Below are positions 5,486 through 12,827 of a DNA stretch of 64,000 bases, piece after piece. This stretch comes from Treponema sp. (GTDB lineage Bacteria; Spirochaetota; Spirochaetia; Treponematales; Breznakiellaceae): NCBI GenBank assembly GCA_009777535.1, contig WRLP01000002.1:1-64000 (forward strand), in the 5' to 3' direction. The position numbers were made by a program, and so were the translations under genes. The first letter of the stretch is position 1. Every line of letters begins with the position of its first letter. The notes under the pieces are model-generated. The model was not told where the DNA came from. It saw only the letters and a program-made list of their open reading frames with translations, and did not search any database.

Positions 5486-5494
5486 TAGCAGCAT

Positions 5495-5667
5495 AAATAT
5501 ATGCCTGAAACTATAACATAAAGCGGCACGCCGTTAGCCCTGCCGGAGGCTGACGGCTGTGGCATTTTCTTACGGACGCTTTGGCGTCGCCTTAGGTGAA
5601 TCCACACCGATGCCTCCGGCAGGGCTAACGGCGTGCCGCTTACATTGTATTTTTTGGGCATATATTT
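5495..5667. mobile_element. MITE-like palindromic element, copy 1
   Basis: A 173-base non-coding element. The outer ends are inverted copies of AAATATATGCC (5495-5505 and 5657-5667). Inside lies a perfect 30-base inverted repeat (5522-5551 against 5612-5641), beginning AAGCGGCACGCCGTTAGCCC. The centre (GACGGCTGTGGCATT ... ACGGACGCTTTGGCGTCGCC) recurs in reverse orientation in the element at 7762-8001. No transposase is present, so it would be non-autonomous. The stretch from the mscS stop to 5813 holds nothing else I can name. Confidence 0.7.
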
Positions 5668-5813: not shown

Positions 5814-6170
5814 TTATTTTCTATTTATTATTTCTAACAATCCAATATTACTATTTCTTAAATCTCCAATTTTTTCTTTTGCATTAATCAGTAATTCCAA
5901 AAGCGCCTGGCTACTGTTATTTCCAGTCCTTATCAAAACAACTTTTGGCGGAAATCCACAAATATCTAACAAATCTAAAAAATCATTATCTTTTGTTATT
6001 ATAATATAACCATTTTCAAGAGCATAATTCCAAATATCCATGTCATTAGCGGGAACATTAAGACCAATATGGTCCACATGTGCACATTCATCAAATATTG
6101 GGGTTAATTTACTTACCAACTTCCACGAAATGTTGGCATCAAGTATTATTTTCATTAAATTTTCAGGCAA
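5814..6170 (-). CDS. DUF5615 PIN-like toxin
   Basis: A 118-residue PIN-like protein of the DUF5615/Mut7-C type. Acidic residues typical of the metal site appear in IILDANIS (near the start), PANDMDIWNYA, and the IITKDNDFLDL motif. Members are predicted RNases that act as toxins beside DUF433 antitoxins, which is the arrangement here. The gene starts inside the end of the DUF433 gene (8-base overlap). The start could be the Met at residue 6 (MKIILDANIS, position 6155), where homologs usually begin. Both genes are AT-rich compared with the surrounding chromosome, consistent with transfer. Confidence 0.8.
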   Translation of the reverse strand: MPENLMKIILDANISWKLVSKLTPIFDECAHVDHIGLNVPANDMDIWNYALENGYIIITKDNDFLDLLDICGFPPKVVLIRTGNNSSQALLELLINAKEKIGDLRNSNIGLLEIINRK

Positions 6171-6414
6171 ATTCGACTACTTTCGTTATATCTTCTCGTC
6201 TTGCAGCAAAAGCCAATGCAGAATATATATGTATTTCTTGAAGTGGTGGATAATCATCCAATATTTCAGAAACAGAAATTCCTTCTGATAGCCACTGCAG
6301 AATATCCCCAACAGTTATTCGAGTTCCTTTAATACATGGTTTCCCAAAGCGAATACCCTGATCTATAACGATATATTTCGATAATTCTTCATTTCCCATA
6401 ATCTTACTATACAT
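6163..6414 (-). CDS. DUF433 antitoxin
   Basis: An 83-residue DUF433 protein: DQGIRFGKPCIKGTRITVGD near residue 20, then the helix LQWLSEGISVSEILDDYPPL. This is a compact winged-helix DNA-binding fold found as the antitoxin partner of DUF5615 PIN-like toxins. It is the first gene of the pair and overlaps the toxin gene, so the two are probably translationally coupled and autoregulated; the regulation is inferred from the family. Confidence 0.85.
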   Translation of the reverse strand: MYSKIMGNEELSKYIVIDQGIRFGKPCIKGTRITVGDILQWLSEGISVSEILDDYPPLQEIHIYSALAFAARREDITKVVEFA

Positions 6415-6530
6415 TAAATTTCTTTATTTTGTCTACGGTTATTAATTGTATGGTATTTTATACACTTAAAAACACAATTTTTTAATATTTTTCAATTTTT
6501 CACGTAATATGTTTGTAAACGCAAAGAAAC

Positions 6531-6600
6531 ATTCTTCTTCGTCCAGCAGGACTCGCCTGACAAGCCTCAGCTGGCGTCTCTCCGAGCCGCGAGCCGATGG
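6531..6600 (-). repeat. tRNA-Arg-derived 3'-end element, degenerate copy C
   Basis: Bases 6531-6555 match the 3' end and 3' flank of the tRNA-Arg gene at 7651-7679 with few mismatches, although no tRNA lies here. The next bases (6556-6595; CCTGACAAGCCTC...CTCCGAG) resemble the core that follows the tRNA fragments of copies A and B. Similarity fades after about 6600. The rest of 6415-6715 is G+C-rich and full of short inverted repeats, with no coding region I can support; it may be the decayed remainder of the element. Confidence 0.5.
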
Positions 6601-6715
6601 GAATTTATTTTTCGCACCGCCATGCTGTGGTGCAGCGCACTGCCAAGGCTTCGGGAGAAGGGGGCAGGTAGCAGCCTTTCGCCACTTGCCAATAAAAACC
6701 CCATCACAGATTTTC

Positions 6716-7003
6716 TTAACTGTTTTGTTTTTCCGTTAATCTTCCTGTTACATATTTGTGAATAATGCTGGCAACCAATGTTTGGTATGGCAGACCTTCT
6801 TCAGCAGCTCTTAGTTTTACACCGTCAAGATCATGTTTTGTTATGCGAATGTTCATACGTTGATCTTTTGTTAATGTATTGGTTGCTGTTTGGGATAATA
6901 GGGTTTTCCAGCTTTCTATATCCTTCGTTGGTTTCCAATTATCTTTTTCAAGCGACATTATGAGTTTTTTTTCTTCACCATCTAAATAATTCACCTTTTT
7001 CAT
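6716..7003 (-). CDS. BrnA-like antitoxin
   Basis: A 95-residue protein with a C-terminal ribbon-helix-helix-like part: KDQRMNIRITKHDLDGVKLRAAEEGLPYQTLVASIIHKYV near residues 46-88. This is the DNA-binding half of BrnA/CopG-type antitoxins. It overlaps the preceding BrnT-like gene by 4 bases. The toxin-then-antitoxin order is typical of brnTA operons. The antitoxin would neutralise the toxin and repress the promoter. Confidence 0.75.
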   Translation of the reverse strand: MKKVNYLDGEEKKLIMSLEKDNWKPTKDIESWKTLLSQTATNTLTKDQRMNIRITKHDLDGVKLRAAEEGLPYQTLVASIIHKYVTGRLTEKQNS

Positions 7004-7281
7004 TTCTTATCTCCTAAATACTTATTTGTATATTTACGGCTTGGATAAATTGTTATCAAATTACATTCTTCCCCTGAAGCTGAAATAGAAGCAGGAACAA
7101 TATAAACATAATTATTAATTTCAACAAGGATAAATATTTGCCCCTTATACTTTTTCTGATTTGGATGCTCCATTACATCTATTATTTTATTGTTTTCGAT
7201 AGATAAAACAATCTGTTCAAATGAGATTTCTCTATGTTGCTTTAGCAGGTCGTTTTTTTCTTCTTTCCATATAAATCGCAT
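7000..7281 (-). CDS. BrnT-like RNase toxin
   Basis: About 93 residues when started at the ATG at 7281 (MRFIWKEEKNDLLKQHREISF). BrnT proteins are small RelE-fold RNases with a similar start (M-F-W-E-K followed by H and a SFEQ/SFEEA motif). I chose this start over an in-frame ATG 36 bases upstream because a strong promoter (TTGACA, 17 bases, TAAAAT) overlaps the longer reading and places the transcription start at the 7281 ATG. The C-terminus lacks a strongly typical BrnT ending, so the family assignment is probable rather than certain. Confidence 0.7.
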   Translation of the reverse strand: MRFIWKEEKNDLLKQHREISFEQIVLSIENNKIIDVMEHPNQKKYKGQIFILVEINNYVYIVPASISASGEECNLITIYPSRKYTNKYLGDKK

Positions 7282-7288
7282 GTATTTT

Positions 7289-7317
7289 ATTTTAGTACAT
7301 TGTGTGCCTTTTGTCAA
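7289..7317 (-). promoter_or_regulatory. Promoter of the BrnT/BrnA-like operon, leaderless
   Basis: On the minus strand TTGACA (7312-7317), 17 bases, TAAAAT (7289-7294), seven bases, ATG at 7281. No Shine-Dalgarno sequence is present. The promoter begins 11 bases from the tRNA-Arg fragment of copy A. Confidence 0.65.
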
Positions 7318-7327
7318 TAATAATACT

Positions 7328-7598
7328 CTGCGTCCGGCAGGACTCGCCTTCCAAGCCTCGACATCGTGTCTCGGCTTGTCAGGCCGTCTTTTTTGCTAAA
7401 CGCACGTCCTTGTGCGTTTGCCTTGCGAAGCCTACCGACGGCGCGCTGCTCAGGCTTCGTATGCTCCGCATATGCGCCTTCGCGCATTTATTCAAAAATG
7501 ATGTTTTTCTCTGCGCCACGCCGTGTTGCATTGTTCATCTACACGGCTTTGCCGTGCATGTTCGGGCGTCCAGGTCGCAAAAAAGTTTCGAGTCCTGC
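7328..7598 (-). repeat. tRNA-Arg 3'-end-bearing hairpin element, copy A
   Basis: Bases 7328-7346 repeat exactly the last 19 bases (3' side) of the intact tRNA-Arg at 7660-7678, ending inside the T-loop. An 86-base core follows (7347-7432) that differs at only about four positions from the core of copy B. The far end (7574-7590) again matches copy B, and 7589-7598 is the exact inverse of 7337-7346 (GCAGGACTCG/CGAGTCCTGC). The element therefore closes with a 10-bp stem made of tRNA-Arg T-stem sequence. The interior is a chain of hairpins, e.g. AAACGCAC/GTGCGTTT and CACGGC/GCCGTG. Short open frames across it are not genes. Confidence 0.7.
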
Positions 7599-7660
7599 AA
7601 TATCACAAATATATTTCTTATGTCAGTCAACAAGACATTTTTTTTAAGTAAAAATTCTTC

Positions 7661-7734
7661 TGCGTCCGGCAGGACTCGAACCTGCTACCTCCAGATTCGA
7701 AGTCTGGCGCTCTATCCAGGTGAGCTACGAACGC
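7661..7734 (-). tRNA. tRNA-Arg (anticodon TCG)
   Basis: A 74-base cloverleaf on the minus strand. The acceptor stem GCGTTCG pairs with CGGACGC (one T-G pair). The anticodon stem CCAGA/TCTGG encloses a loop with TCG. The T-arm is GCAGG-TTCGAGT-CCTGC and the discriminator base is A. The gene is intact although the element downstream of it carries a second copy of its 3' end. Confidence 0.93.
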
Positions 7735-7761
7735 TAGTAATACTTCCTTTCCTCGTTATTT

Positions 7762-8001
7762 CAGAAACATATGCTAATACAGGCTCATCTAAGCGGTGCG
7801 CCGTTGCCTTGACGGAGGCATGCCTTCCTTCGGTCGGCGACCGTAAGGAAATTCATTAAATCGCCGCTAACGCGGCGTACGGTTACGGTTTGGATTCGCA
7901 TAAGGCGACGCCAAAGCGTCCGTAAATAAATGCCACAGCCGTCAGCCTCCGGAAGGGCAACGGCACATCGCTATAGAAATTGTTTTAAGCATATGTTTCT
8001 G
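7762..8001. mobile_element. MITE-like element, copy 2
   Basis: A 240-base non-coding element with perfect 14-base terminal inverted repeats CAGAAACATATGCT (7762-7775, 7988-8001). Inner arms (AAGCGGTGCGCCGTTG near 7791 and the inverse of AGCGATGTGCCGTTGCCC near 7955-7973) match copy 1, and the segment 7901-7960 is about 85-90% like copy 1 in reverse orientation. The terminal repeats also match those at 26.7 kb. It lies between tRNA-Arg and the tRNA-His 3'-end fragment and ends one base before the latter. Confidence 0.7.
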
Positions 8002-8002
8002 A

Positions 8003-8147
8003 GGGTGGATGACGGGTTTCGCCTTCCAAGCCTCGACATCGTGTCTCGGCTTTCCAGGCCGTCTTTTTTGCTAAACGCACATCCTTGTGCGTTTGCCTTA
8101 CGAAGCCATTCGGCTTCTTCAGGCCGCAAAAAAGTTTCGAAACCCGC
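8003..8147 (-). repeat. tRNA-His 3'-end-bearing hairpin element, copy B
   Basis: Bases 8003-8021 repeat exactly the 3'-terminal region of the intact tRNA-His (8170-8188), up to the T-loop. The same core as copy A follows (8022-8107). The closing sequence GCAAAAAAGTTTCG (8126-8139) is also shared. The outer arms 8013-8021 and 8138-8146 are inverse repeats of tRNA-His T-stem sequence (CGGGTTTCG/CGAAACCCG). Where copy A carries tRNA-Arg sequence, copy B carries tRNA-His sequence; the core is the same. Internal hairpins include GAAGCC-GAAT-GGCTTC and AAACGCAC/GTGCGTTT. Confidence 0.7.
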
Positions 8148-8170
8148 ATTTTCCCGTAGTAAAACATATG

Positions 8171-8243
8171 GGTGGATGACGGGTTTCGAACCCGCGACGA
8201 CAAGATCCACAATCTTGGACTCTACCCCTGAGCTACATCCACC
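8171..8243 (-). tRNA. tRNA-His (anticodon GTG)
   Basis: A cloverleaf on the minus strand with anticodon GTG in the loop TTGTGGA. It has the extra 5' G of tRNA-His (G-1 opposite C73): the 8-base end GGTGGATG pairs with CATCCACC. The T-arm is GCGGG-TTCGAAA-CCCGT. A promoter (TTGACA, 17 bases, CATAGT) lies upstream. Confidence 0.93.
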
Positions 8244-8380: not shown

Positions 8381-8890
8381 ATGAGTTACGAAAAATGCAG
8401 GGAAATACTGCTTAAAGAGACGGAATTGATCCAAAACGCGACGGATCTTCAAAAGAAGATGCAGGATGCCGTGTCCAAAAGGGAATGGACCGATTTTGAA
8501 GGCCATTTTTCATCTATCAGCGCCATGGAAAGCGAAATCCTGGCTTTGGAAAAGGAACGGGAAGGGCTTTTTCACGATTTTAATACAGGCGACGGGAAAA
8601 AGAAAACCAACAGGATGCCCGATCCGAAGGGGCAATTCTATGCCATGACAGCGCTTCTCCCAGCCGAGCAGCGTAATGATCTAACCGACATTTACCGCAG
8701 CCTTAAACTCAAAGCGCTGAAAATGCGCCTTACAAACGACGCTTTTATGCATCACCTGATAAACATAAGGGAAAGTCTTTCTGAATTTTTCAAACTGGTT
8801 TTTCCGGACAGAAGCGGAAAAATGTATACATCCGATGGTACTCATTTATCCCACGATATGCGCAGCATTGTGCTTAACAAGCGCTTTTAA
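8381..8890 (+). CDS. flgN: FlgN-like flagellar chaperone
   Basis: A 169-residue, largely helical protein directly upstream of flgK. The FlgN family binds the C-termini of the hook-junction proteins FlgK and FlgL in the cytoplasm and guides them to the flagellar export gate. The sequence (long helices with KETELIQNATDLQKKMQDAV near the start, ALEKEREGLFHDF near residue 60) and the position fit; the primary sequence of the family is poorly conserved, so the name rests mainly on context. GAGGTGG lies before the ATG. Confidence 0.7.
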   Translation: MSYEKCREILLKETELIQNATDLQKKMQDAVSKREWTDFEGHFSSISAMESEILALEKEREGLFHDFNTGDGKKKTNRMPDPKGQFYAMTALLPAEQRNDLTDIYRSLKLKALKMRLTNDAFMHHLINIRESLSEFFKLVFPDRSGKMYTSDGTHLSHDMRSIVLNKRF

Positions 8891-8899
8891 GGAGAGGTT

Positions 8900-10789
8900 A
8901 TGACATCAACTTTTATGGGGCTGGAAATAGGCAGAAGGGGCTTGCATGCCCATCAGCAGGCGCAATACACCACCGGTCATAACCTGGATAATCTTAATAC
9001 TGAAGGGTACTCGAGACAGCGGGTTTTACTGGTGCCTTTTGAGCCGATTTATCTGCCAGGCCTGAACCGTGAGGAAACACCCGGGCAGATAGGGCAGGGT
9101 GTTGTAGTAAGCAGAATCGAGAGAATCCGCGACGAGCTTTTAGACAGAAGAATTGTTGCCCAGGCATCGGGGGAAGGATACTGGTCTGTAAGGGATCGTT
9201 ATATCCGCGAGATGGAGCAATTTTATCTTGAAACTGGCGATAACTCTGTTCGCAGCAAGATGGATACATTCTGGGATGCATGGCAGGAGCTTTCCAATCA
9301 TCCGGCGGATATGGAATTCAGAACTGCTGTTTTGGAGCGGGGAAAAACCCTTATTGACGGCATTCATAATCATTATCACAATCTTAAACGCCTGCAAACA
9401 CAGGTTGATTCTGATATTCAGATGACGGTAGCGACAGTAAATGAACTCTCCCGCCAGATTGCCGCCCTTAACGGTGATATTCAAAGAATAAAAGCACAGG
9501 GTGATAATCCGAATGATTTGATGGATCGCCGTGACCTTTTGGTTGACAAGCTGTCATCAATAATTGATGTTACGGTGGATCAAAGAGACCCGGACGAATT
9601 CATGGTTCATACATCAGGCCATATTCTTGTGCAGGGGCAAATCGGACGTCAATTTGATATGCACAAGGGAATTGATACCGAAGGTTATGCGCACATCTAT
9701 TGGCAGGATACAAGGCACAATATAGTTTTTACCAAGGGTTCCCTTGGAGCATTGATGGAACTGCGTGATGTTACCATTGAACATGAGGTTCAAACGCTTG
9801 ATAACATGACCATGAATTTTACTGATTTAGTCAACGAGATACACAGCGAGGCTCACGGAGCAAATGGAAGAACCGGTCTTAACTTTTTTTCTGAATATCC
9901 CTTTGTTACCAATGTTAACGGAAATTATGACCGTTCCGGCAACGGGGTTTTCGATTCCAGTTATATTTACCGGATAAACGGCCTGAATACCCTTGAATCA
10001 CAGGCGCAGCCGGGGCTGGAAGGGGTAATTACCCTTGCAGGTGCGGACGGTCAGGTTCAGGTTCCATATTATTCAACGGATACCGTAATTGATATTATAA
10101 CAAGAATGAATAATTCAGGAGCGGAAGTTGTAGCAAGACTGAACAGGGATGGAAATATTTCATTAAAGGCGACGCCTGCCCAGTCCATTAACGGAGTAAG
10201 GGAAAACCCTGATTTTGTTATCCGCCATGTTGAAGATTCCGGGCATTTCCTTGTAGGATACGCCGGGCTTCTTGAAGCCTCCGGCCCAGACGGAGCCTTT
10301 ACATGGGAGCAGGCAGATGCAGTAAACAGCCTTCGCGGCGGCGCCGAAGATTATGCTCTGGCTCCTGTTGCCCACCCATCAGGCTGGATAGAGGTTAACC
10401 CTGCATTAGTCAGGGATCCCAGCTCTGTGGCCGCGGGTTTTGGTTATAACGGAAACCCCGCCAATCCGGGCAACGGCGATGCCGCCGCTCAAATAGCGCT
10501 GATTAGAAACAGTCCTGTAATGGTTGGACAGCTTTCAACCTTCGATGATTATTTCGCCGATTCTGTGGGGCGCATTGCGCTTTTGGGTGAACAGTCGGGC
10601 AGGGCTCTTGAAACTGAAAACCGCATTATGAAGCAGTTGCATGATATGCGCCAGTCAATTTCCGGCGTAAATATGGACGAAGAACTGTCCAATATGCTCC
10701 GTTTTCAGCATGGATACAATGCCGCAGCTCGTTTTATTACAGTTGTAAATACCATGCTGGATACATTAATTAACCGTATGGGTGTTTAG
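8900..10789 (+). CDS. flgK: Flagellar hook-associated protein 1
   Basis: A 629-residue FlgK, the first hook-filament junction protein; in spirochaetes it is exported to the periplasmic flagellum. The N-terminal D0/D1 region has the axial-protein pattern LEIGRRGLHAHQQAQYTTGH..NLNTEGYSRQR. The FlgK-specific coiled segment follows (about 90-230, with IAALNGDIQRIKAQGDNPNDLMDRRDLL). The C-terminus has the conserved SGVNMDEELSNMLRFQHGYNAAARFI..MLDTLINRMGV. It is longer than enteric FlgK (about 550) because of a larger central domain. Ten bases separate it from flgN. Confidence 0.95.
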   Translation: MTSTFMGLEIGRRGLHAHQQAQYTTGHNLDNLNTEGYSRQRVLLVPFEPIYLPGLNREETPGQIGQGVVVSRIERIRDELLDRRIVAQASGEGYWSVRDRYIREMEQFYLETGDNSVRSKMDTFWDAWQELSNHPADMEFRTAVLERGKTLIDGIHNHYHNLKRLQTQVDSDIQMTVATVNELSRQIAALNGDIQRIKAQGDNPNDLMDRRDLLVDKLSSIIDVTVDQRDPDEFMVHTSGHILVQGQIGRQFDMHKGIDTEGYAHIYWQDTRHNIVFTKGSLGALMELRDVTIEHEVQTLDNMTMNFTDLVNEIHSEAHGANGRTGLNFFSEYPFVTNVNGNYDRSGNGVFDSSYIYRINGLNTLESQAQPGLEGVITLAGADGQVQVPYYSTDTVIDIITRMNNSGAEVVARLNRDGNISLKATPAQSINGVRENPDFVIRHVEDSGHFLVGYAGLLEASGPDGAFTWEQADAVNSLRGGAEDYALAPVAHPSGWIEVNPALVRDPSSVAAGFGYNGNPANPGNGDAAAQIALIRNSPVMVGQLSTFDDYFADSVGRIALLGEQSGRALETENRIMKQLHDMRQSISGVNMDEELSNMLRFQHGYNAAARFITVVNTMLDTLINRMGV

Positions 10790-10805
10790 GAAGTGAGGTA
10801 AAACC

Positions 10806-12056
10806 ATGAGAAGAATTTCCAGCGATATGCCAAATACTGATATTCAGTTTTATTTGCGCAGGCAGGAAGAGTCTGTCGCCAATATGCAGTCCAAGATTGC
10901 TGCTCAAAACAGACTCAATGAATTAAGGGACGATCCGATTGCCGCCTCTCATGCAGTGCGCTACGAATCATTTCTTGCACGGTTATACCGTTTCGAGAGC
11001 AATACCAAGTATGCGATGGATCATTATAATGTTACATACGATTACATGAACGAAGCCAATTCGATCATTCAAAGAATACGAGAGCTGGCTGTAACCGGAG
11101 CTAACGGCGTTTACACACCCGATGATCTAAAACTCATGGGAATCGAGATAAACGAACTGTTAAAAGAATTTGTGTCAATTTCCAACAAGACAGGGCCTGA
11201 TATAAAGCAGATGTTCGCGGGAGACAAGGTCTTTACAGAACCATTTCGCATAGTAGAAGGAACAGTCCAGGGCGGCGGTGATAACATGATTGTCCGTGTT
11301 GAATACCGCGGTGCCGGTGCGGCAAGGAGAACAGAAATTGGCGATCGTACATTTTTGGATTTGGATATAGGCGGAGGCGAAGCGTTTTGGGCCGAAAAAA
11401 TGCAGGTTTTTTCGCATGTTGATGCGACAGACTACAGGGTAAATGAACCAGGTGCGTTTTATATTGACGGTGTCGAAATAGCCGTTGCTGTAGGAGATAC
11501 GCTGCCGGCTATTGTGGCAAAGATAAATGATTCTTCGGCTCCTGTAAAAGCAAACATAGACCCAACAACGAGAGGCCTCGTTCTTGAAGGAACCACGCCG
11601 CATCTTATCCGTGCCGAAGACAAGGTGGGCGGTGCTACAATCCTGCGCGATCTTGGAATCATCAACGGGAATATGGAAAACAATGCTCCCAACTGGAGTA
11701 ATTCAGCCCGTGTTTTTGGCGGCTCGATGTTTGACATGGTATTGCGGTTGCGTGATGCGATGATGCGCGGCGATCAAGATTTTATCGGAAGCCAGGGAAT
11801 AGCGGGCATGGATTTGGCATTGAATAATCTTACCGCAAGAATGGCAGAAATAGGCAGCCGTCAGGAACGGGCTGAAATGGCGTGGCACAGGATTAACAGG
11901 GAAATCCCGGATGTAACAAGCATGCTTTCCAGAGAAACAGGAATTGATATGGCGGACGCTGCCACCGATCTCAAATGGATGCAGCTGGCTCATCAGGCTA
12001 CTTTGCAGACAGCGGCAAGAATCCTGCCACCGTCATTACTTGACTTTCTAAGATAA
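10806..12056 (+). CDS. flgL: Flagellar hook-associated protein 3
   Basis: A 416-residue FlgL, the second junction protein between hook and filament. The N-terminal flagellin-like helix (YLRRQEESVANMQSKIAAQNRLNELRDDPIAASHAVRYES) and the C-terminal helix (MAEIGSRQERAEMAWHRINREIPDV..DLKWMQLAHQATLQTAARI) fit the flagellin superfamily. The middle region (about 140-300) is an insertion larger than in enteric FlgL. It follows flgK by 16 bases, the order usual in spirochaetes and many other bacteria. Confidence 0.93.
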   Translation: MRRISSDMPNTDIQFYLRRQEESVANMQSKIAAQNRLNELRDDPIAASHAVRYESFLARLYRFESNTKYAMDHYNVTYDYMNEANSIIQRIRELAVTGANGVYTPDDLKLMGIEINELLKEFVSISNKTGPDIKQMFAGDKVFTEPFRIVEGTVQGGGDNMIVRVEYRGAGAARRTEIGDRTFLDLDIGGGEAFWAEKMQVFSHVDATDYRVNEPGAFYIDGVEIAVAVGDTLPAIVAKINDSSAPVKANIDPTTRGLVLEGTTPHLIRAEDKVGGATILRDLGIINGNMENNAPNWSNSARVFGGSMFDMVLRLRDAMMRGDQDFIGSQGIAGMDLALNNLTARMAEIGSRQERAEMAWHRINREIPDVTSMLSRETGIDMADAATDLKWMQLAHQATLQTAARILPPSLLDFLR

Positions 12057-12066
12057 GGAGATTGTT

Positions 12067-12507
12067 GTGAAACTGATGACCAAGGCTTATGGTCTTATCG
12101 ATGTCGATGAACGGCAAAAAATTATTTTTCCCCAGGGGCTTTTTGGATTCGAGAATTTAAGGGATTATGTATTATTGGATGCTGAGCAGCAGCCGTTTTA
12201 TTGGCTTCAATCAATGGATATGGAGCATGTAGCATTTGTTCTGATCAATCCATTTGTTTTCCGTCCTGATTATGAAGTAAATATACCAAACGAAGATATG
12301 GCAGAGATTAATATTCATTCACCTGAAAAAGCGCTCATTTTCTCGATTGTTACAATACCTGCTGACGGTAAAAATATAACTGCAAATCTTCAAGGCCCAT
12401 TGATTATTAATCGTGATAACAGAACAGGAAAGCAGGTTGTTCTTTCTGATGATCGATGGAACACAAAGCATGATATTTTAACTGAACTTGCCGGAGTGAG
12501 GAACTAA
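12067..12507 (+). CDS. fliW: Flagellar assembly factor FliW
   Basis: A 146-residue FliW starting at GTG behind AAGGAG. FliW binds flagellin and inhibits CsrA allosterically, so flagellin translation is matched to export. Family marks: [20 protein letters not shown] near residue 20, [18 protein letters not shown] near 55, and [20 protein letters not shown] near 115. Only one base separates it from csrA, the standard fliW-csrA pair. Confidence 0.93.
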
Positions 12508-12508
12508 T

Positions 12509-12745
12509 ATGCTCATTTTATCAAGGAAGGTAAACGAGAAAATCATGATCGGCGACAATATCGCCGTTTCAATTATCGAAATAAGAGGTGATCAAGTCCG
12601 TATTGGAGTTGATGCTCCCAAAAGCATTAAGGTATTCCGGCAGGAAGTGTACGAGGCCATCAAGGCGGAAAATAAAGCGGCTTCAGAGTCGACACCAGCG
12701 ATACCAAACGTAGATTTCGGCGGAGTACAAAGGGAAGTTATTTAG
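12509..12745 (+). CDS. csrA: Carbon storage regulator CsrA
   Basis: A 78-residue CsrA, an RNA-binding dimer that blocks translation by binding GGA motifs near ribosome-binding sites. It begins [20 protein letters not shown], with the conserved R6 (LSRK), and has [20 protein letters not shown] containing the functionally important R44-equivalent. The C-terminal tail (about 18 residues) is longer than in E. coli. It is last in the flagellar operon and antagonised by FliW from the adjacent gene. Confidence 0.95.
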
Positions 12746-12754
12746 TTATATTTT

Positions 12755-12827
12755 TCGGGGAGGGGGGATTTGAACCCCCGACCTTCTGCTCCCAAAGCAG
12801 ACGGAATAGCCGCTATCCAACCCCCCG
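12755..12827 (-). tRNA. tRNA-Pro (anticodon TGG)
   Basis: A minus-strand cloverleaf. The acceptor CGGGGGG pairs with CTCCCCG. The anticodon arm is TCTGC-TTTGGGA-GCAGA with TGG, the T-arm GGGGG-TTCAAAT-CCCCC, and the discriminator is A. It lies nine bases from the csrA stop on the opposite strand. Confidence 0.94.

Follow-up and report, generated by a model that had tools for sequence, protein, structure and literature searches.

Two tRNA genes in the window analysed here (64,000 nucleotides of the Treponema sp. contig WRLP01000002.1, assembly GCA_009777535.1) are each followed by a structured element that closes with a copy of the 3′ end of that same tRNA. What are these elements, and why do they repeat the end of the gene in front of them? 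The original prediction offered two readings: an element that inserts in the T-loop with repair that copies the tRNA 3′ half, or a family of RNAs with tRNA-like 3′ ends. The second proved to be the better supported, and it matches a known kind of element, the tRNA-linked repeats (TLRs) and RtT RNAs. TLRs were reported from E. coli by Egan and Landy (1978) and Rudd (1999), as described in PMC8144298. In each of the 22 E. coli TLRs, 18–19 bp repeat the 3′ end of the preceding gene exactly, and the function of the class, known since 1978, is a question without a settled answer (PMC8144298). The spirochaete elements lie 3′ of a tRNA on the same strand, carry an 18-nt identical tail and occur as single or tandem units; we regard them as very probably TLR-type elements. 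Our literature searches found nothing on the spirochaete family in Treponema and nothing on tRNA-linked repeats outside enterobacteria.

Both host genes, assigned by ARAGORN and Rfam, are on the minus strand, as are all parts of the two units: tRNA-Arg(TCG) at 7661–7734 and tRNA-His(GTG) at 8170/8171–8242. In each unit a 5′ arm is followed by hairpins, a common core and the tRNA 3′-end copy, which is the order of parts originally described. Copy 1 (Arg; 7335–7598), which scored 104.3 bits with our covariance model R1, has an insertion in hairpin P3 and is separated from its tRNA by a 62-nt spacer (7599–7660) of family-typical length and unconserved sequence. Copy 2 (His; 8010–8147; 149.1 bits) has helices P1–P6 and by itself folds into the family structure (minimum free energy −69.3 kcal/mol, z −8.5). 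The 5′ arm X′ of copy 1 (7589–7598) and that of copy 2 (8138–8146) are complements of the T-loop and the 3′ half of the T-stem of their own tRNAs, and the predicted inverse-repeat arms were found as GCAGGACTCG at 7337 and CGAGTCCTGC at 7589 in the Arg unit and as CGGGTTTCG at 8013 and CGAAACCCG at 8138 in the His unit. The copied tRNA end, expected to span about 19 bases, measures 20 nt for Arg (C56–N73 plus 2 nt; 7327–7346, equal to 7659–7678) and 19 nt for His (8003–8021, equal to 8170–8188). The Arg core (7344–7432) and the His core (8019–8107) are 96% identical over 89 nt, with four differences. The 86-base core proposed originally was therefore right as to sharing and the number of differences and too short as to extent, the conserved structure being the whole unit from arm to arm. 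A search of Rfam over the region returned the two tRNAs and otherwise weak, chance-level matches below the gathering score.

Other repeats and genes surround the two units. The P3 insertion of the Arg copy holds a REP-like hairpin repeat of 43 nt (7445–7487), an 84% copy of which lies at a tRNA-Ala array of the same genome (L003, 1644–1686). Between the His unit and tRNA-Arg, at 7761–8002, lies another repeat, whose ends are perfect 15-bp inverted copies (TCAGAAACATATGCT / AGCATATGTTTCTGA); stretches related to it occur at 5492–5609 and at other loci of the genome. Two small toxin–antitoxin-type gene pairs occupy 5814–7317 on the minus strand, one of them DUF5615/DUF433, the other a weak CopG-antitoxin match beside an ORF without a Pfam family. 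A flagellar cluster at 8381–12745 comprises an unassigned 169-aa ORF, FlgK, a flagellin/FlgL-like protein, FliW and CsrA. Beyond it, some 10 bp separate the csrA stop from the end of tRNA-Pro (12755–12827, minus strand), which leaves no room for a unit.

The two copies are members of a large family. The core was used as a blastn query against 60 genomes, the own genome included; 23 of them had copies, the own genome six good ones. A tRNA was nearby at almost all of these loci, and the named relatives carrying core copies are all Treponema MAGs. The model R1, built for the family and used to scan genomes, found 17 copies in the own genome, every one downstream of a tRNA gene and on the same strand. 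With just 46 tRNA genes in the genome, chance is excluded as the cause of the association. Matches were present in 47 of the 60 related spirochaetes and, under strict filters, in 42 of 296 genomes across the phylum; none was found in the 185 genomes of a gammaproteobacterial comparison group. One pattern match in Pseudomonas flavescens (L049) was rejected as a chance hit, because the matched sequence is a terminator that follows a fis-like gene and no tRNA is there. Phage, plasmid and viral collections were queried with one element of 187 nt and one pattern of 20 nt, and contained no match.

From fetched regions of further genomes and the own genome, 168 elements were tabulated. An intact tRNA or tmRNA gene lies upstream on the same strand of 153 of them, and these hosts comprise 31 tRNA species and tmRNA (seven elements); no spirochaete element was seen at 5S. 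The other 15 fall at contig edges, at tRNA or tmRNA remnants or at tRNAs missed by the program, with about one exception (L281). Core copies flanked by non-tRNA sequence, which the original prediction had set as its refuting test, are accordingly confined to that one case or so. At four elements (L172, L174, L177, L243) the adjoining tRNA gene seems broken or went unrecognised but retains an intact 3′ half, which could reflect assembly breaks or real tRNA losses. The gap between tRNA and element peaks at 55–66 nt and has no sequence signal. Neither did a positional −10/−35 signal appear among 119 spacers. An intrinsic terminator was detected between tRNA and element in 12–20 of the 119 spacers, and also at L298, too few for it to be the general reason for the spacer. 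Tandem arrays consist of two to five units with a period of about 185–220 nt; arrays of four to five units occur in the complete genomes at L297 (tRNA-Gln) and L298 (tRNA-Asn).

The claim that a constant core is combined with ends tailored to the target held true across the 168 tabulated elements. The per-position identity between the distal copy and its own tRNA, in a profile that left out copies with long repeats, was 0.95–1.00 from C56 to N73. Position 55 gave 0.02 and position 74 gave 0.54, with about 0.35–0.45 beyond. All 18 positions were identical in 124 of the 153 elements. The right boundary of the copied block is the end of the mature tRNA, and CCA is absent at positions 74–76 of the spirochaete distal copies; a tail copied from mature tRNA is therefore ruled out. 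Since the trailer beside the distal copy has diverged, selection or conversion maintains the tail. The 5′ arm complements tRNA positions 57–65, with pairing at 57–62 in every aligned sequence, at 63 in nine of ten and at 64–65 less often. Tail positions 66–73 are unpaired within the element, yet 97–100% identical to the tRNA, a match that goes beyond the needs of a pure processing signal. Next to one tRNA-Gly gene that has no element (L157), the trailer is directly repeated in tandem, together with the final ~9 nt of the tRNA.

The six-helix structure was written for an alignment (A1) of 30 units in tRNA sense. P1 is formed by the arm and the tail, P2 encloses P3 and P4, and P5 and P6 follow. 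In this structure 89.9% of the cells are paired, and changes on both sides occur in 38 of the 50 pairs. The number of double-change cells was 265, as against 72 ± 7.5 after shuffling and 25–57 with the partners slid, and the covariation supporting the fold is strong. P2, for instance, reads CUUUUUUGC/GCAAAAAAG in most copies and GGGUUUUCGC/GCGAAAACCC in several Lys copies and is GC-rich in Ser copies; a GAAA tetraloop caps P3 in 11 of the 30 units. Mismatches in paired columns were far more often G·A (88) than T·C (7) and more often G·U (44) than A·C (24), which favours the tRNA-sense strand as the folding strand.

The loops of two hairpins resemble CsrA binding sites. SELEX gave RUACARGGAUGU as the CsrA consensus, its GGA being placed in a hairpin loop (PMC7652899), and Leptospira CsrA binds GGA-loop RNA (PMC8668096). 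Of 26 aligned elements, 25 have CA(N)GGANG as their P4 loop; the loop of P6 is mostly ACAGGAUGU or a close variant. CA(N)GGANG occurs in 184 of 190 distinct elements, and more than once in 136. An element has on average 1.75 copies of the motif, compared with 0.13 in shuffled sequences; these counts are not independent, because the elements are related. In the window, the P4 hairpin of copy 1 (7403–7414) reads CACAAGGACGUG as RNA and has a CsrA-type loop, and that of copy 2 (8078–8089) reads CACAAGGAUGUG, which includes ACAAGGAUGU, a part of the SELEX consensus. Both window copies have CGA instead of GGA in the P6 loop. The gammaproteobacterial RtT set showed a weaker excess of the motif (0.47 vs 0.12). 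One RtT unit by tmRNA in a gammaproteobacterium (L081, 1501–1639) carries GUACAGGGAUGU, a full match to the consensus, in contrast to the prediction that the E. coli tRNA-linked TLRs do not bind CsrA (PMC8144298).

The proposed binding partner is encoded in the window itself: csrA (12509–12745, plus strand), the sole CsrA match in this genome, follows the flgK, flgL-like and fliW genes. The gene is present in 48 of the 60 relatives. Within one family (f4), elements occurred in all three csrA-positive and in none of the five csrA-negative genomes, a small sample of eight genomes from six genera. Several csrA-positive genomes have no element. Seven draft genomes in the genus carry elements without csrA. 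Incompleteness would account for a number of this size, although one of the seven (G013) is 94% complete.

Position, tailoring, fold, loop motif and distribution are direct observations on the spirochaete genomes, and the explanation that we narrowly favour as a whole is a spirochaete TLR that would act as a co-transcribed RNA with tRNA-like processing and CsrA buffering. Its element RNA is probably expressed and functional. A structured RNA of about 120–140 nt would be made by read-through from the tRNA gene in front; its 3′ end, the last 18 nt of the tRNA (C56–N73), would lead the processing machinery to cut it like a tRNA, and the 5′ arm would pair with this tail and close the molecule as helix P1. 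The interior is predicted to form a three-way junction and two hairpins with CA(N)GGANG loops. Since two hairpin loops nearly always have this motif, the element may titrate CsrA, and the released RNA would most likely bind CsrA and buffer it in concert with tRNA synthesis. We give CsrA about even chances of being the partner. Transcription, processing and CsrA binding would follow, by analogy, the 5S-linked TLRs, which alone provide the E. coli precedent. Elements whose spacer holds a terminator would be expressed only by read-through, of the kind reported for E. coli rrB.

One alternative, which we consider rather doubtful, makes the element mobile. A non-autonomous element would target the T-loop of any tRNA-like gene, insertion would duplicate the tRNA 3′ end and the trailer (about 80 bp), the 5′ arm would arise by fold-back copying of the target, and the folded strand would be a DNA or RNA intermediate and not a regulator. 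Some copies indeed have direct repeats of 56–90 nt that span the tail and the whole trailer; in L250, L280, L257 and L184 the break of the long repeat falls at a similar position within the 5′ arm, and tail plus spacer measure about 80 nt in most copies. The tRNAs that have no distal copy mostly lack the arm too (54 of 64). The Arg and His cores, moreover, are 95–96% alike within G000 and, separately, within G016, with wholly different arms and tails; such pairs would also be explained by core exchange between existing elements. No protein partner was found, and the phage, plasmid and viral queries already mentioned gave no copy. The nearest neighbour of a core was at the same tRNA type in another genome for 41 of 164 elements (about 6 expected), as in long vertical descent, and at another tRNA of the same genome for 23 of 164 (about 5 expected); together the two excesses indicate long-term descent at a site combined with exchange within genomes. 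The decay of the trailer repeat while C56–N73 stays identical would require selection on the tail after insertion. The long repeats, the arm break points and the lack of arms would suit an insertion mechanism without demonstrating one, and the originally suggested T-loop insertion with copying repair stays a rather doubtful candidate. In their termini the elements do not fit an IS-derived MITE, since the terminal repeats vary with the tRNA and are not constant for the family. A broader and somewhat less probable conjecture combines mobility with regulation: TLRs might be self-dispersing, writing both ends from any adjoining tRNA-like gene including tmRNA, and their domestication in spirochaetes might have yielded a scattered store of about 20–40 CsrA sites per genome, coupled to growth rate, that replaces a CsrB-like RNA.

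It is unlikely that the distal copies serve mainly as spare tRNA 3′ ends, such that deletion or slippage between direct copies would leave the tRNA intact, the tails being selected to fit the 5′ strand of the tRNA body and the core being a passenger or a promoter of recombination. This would suit the identity of the unpaired positions 66–73, the loss of several tails by abrupt junctions near 65–67 and not by single changes, and the tandem arrays with truncated outer units, taken as expansion and contraction. However, the conserved fold, the covarying arm and the conserved loops would be left unexplained, and the selection would be weak and second-order. An ordinary attachment-site duplication left by tRNA-targeting integrases, already disfavoured in the original prediction, is most improbable: the direct repeat does begin in the T-loop, the usual crossover region of such integrases, but units of about 140–260 nt with a conserved fold and with tail and arm both tailored, spread over 31 tRNA species and tmRNA within one family, do not fit it, no integrase domain was found among nine neighbouring proteins, and the 138–264-nt units have no room to encode one.

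The co-transcribed TLR reading can finally be set against the known systems. Like the E. coli TLRs, the spirochaete elements immediately follow a stable RNA gene in its own orientation, reproduce 18–19 nt of its 3′ end, number one to five units per locus and include members with a link to CsrA, in their case a putative one, where some TLRs bind the protein. They differ in a core unrelated in sequence and fold, in the range of hosts (31 tRNA species and tmRNA, with none seen at 5S), in a tail that runs from C56 to N73 where CCA is not gene-encoded, and in having CsrA-type loops in almost all members, in contrast to the 5S-linked ones only in E. coli.

The elements also resemble RtT in plan. At E. 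coli tyrT/tyrV (L055), the site of rttR, the same arrangement of arm GGGGAAGGAU, core and AAUCCUUCCCCCACCACCA is repeated, and Rfam assigns it to RtT (RF00391). Gammaproteobacterial RtT loci are tailored to Gln, Tyr, Ser and tmRNA, and most of the 20 inspected have the same architecture: a 5′ arm complementary to the tail, a closed core, a tail reaching the tRNA 3′ end, tailoring to each tRNA and tandem units. Their tail identity is 0.89–1.00 at positions 59–76 and drops after 77, so that the block (A58–A76) ends at A76 and contains the gene-encoded CCA, and their period of about 178 bp compares with mostly 185–220 nt in spirochaetes. At the Rfam gathering score, RF00391 matched nothing in the own genome and nothing in six spirochaete loci. 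Since R1 and RF00391 do not cross-match in either direction, the two share an architecture and not a core, and we do not file the spirochaete element as RtT. A role of RtT in the stringent response was claimed first and later withdrawn by its authors (PMC8144298), and is set aside here.

The three 5S-linked TLRs of E. coli, RrA, RrB and RrF, owe their transcription to terminator read-through. They are processed at the repeat, RrB giving a 173-nt form that extends 3 nt beyond it, and bind CsrA in EMSA, whereas the 19 tRNA-linked TLRs are predicted not to (PMC8144298). A repeat of the 3′ end of a stable RNA, processing there, GGA loops and CsrA binding are the features of this group (PMC8144298) that the spirochaete elements recall, processing and binding being putative in their case; unlike them, the group is 5S-linked and lies between two terminators, and rrB has no complementary 5′ arm that is obvious by eye. 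With CsrB, CsrC and the Rsm RNAs the elements have GGA-loop hairpins in common (consensus ANGGA/ACARGGAUGU), CsrA binding in spirochaetes being putative; they offer two sites per unit across many tRNA loci, in contrast to many sites on one RNA.

What is new is thus a second TLR-like family, in another phylum and with a sequence-unrelated core, built on an architecture already known from E. coli. The comparison of two unrelated families brings out the features that matter, the exact tail of the tRNA 3′ end and the complementary 5′ arm, with the tail ending at N73 where CCA is not encoded and at A76 where it is; spirochaetes add two CsrA-type loops. If the CsrA reading is true, spirochaetes would link tRNA synthesis, by way of the tRNA tails, to CsrA, a regulator of motility and metabolism, and the two families side by side make the question of TLR function directly testable.
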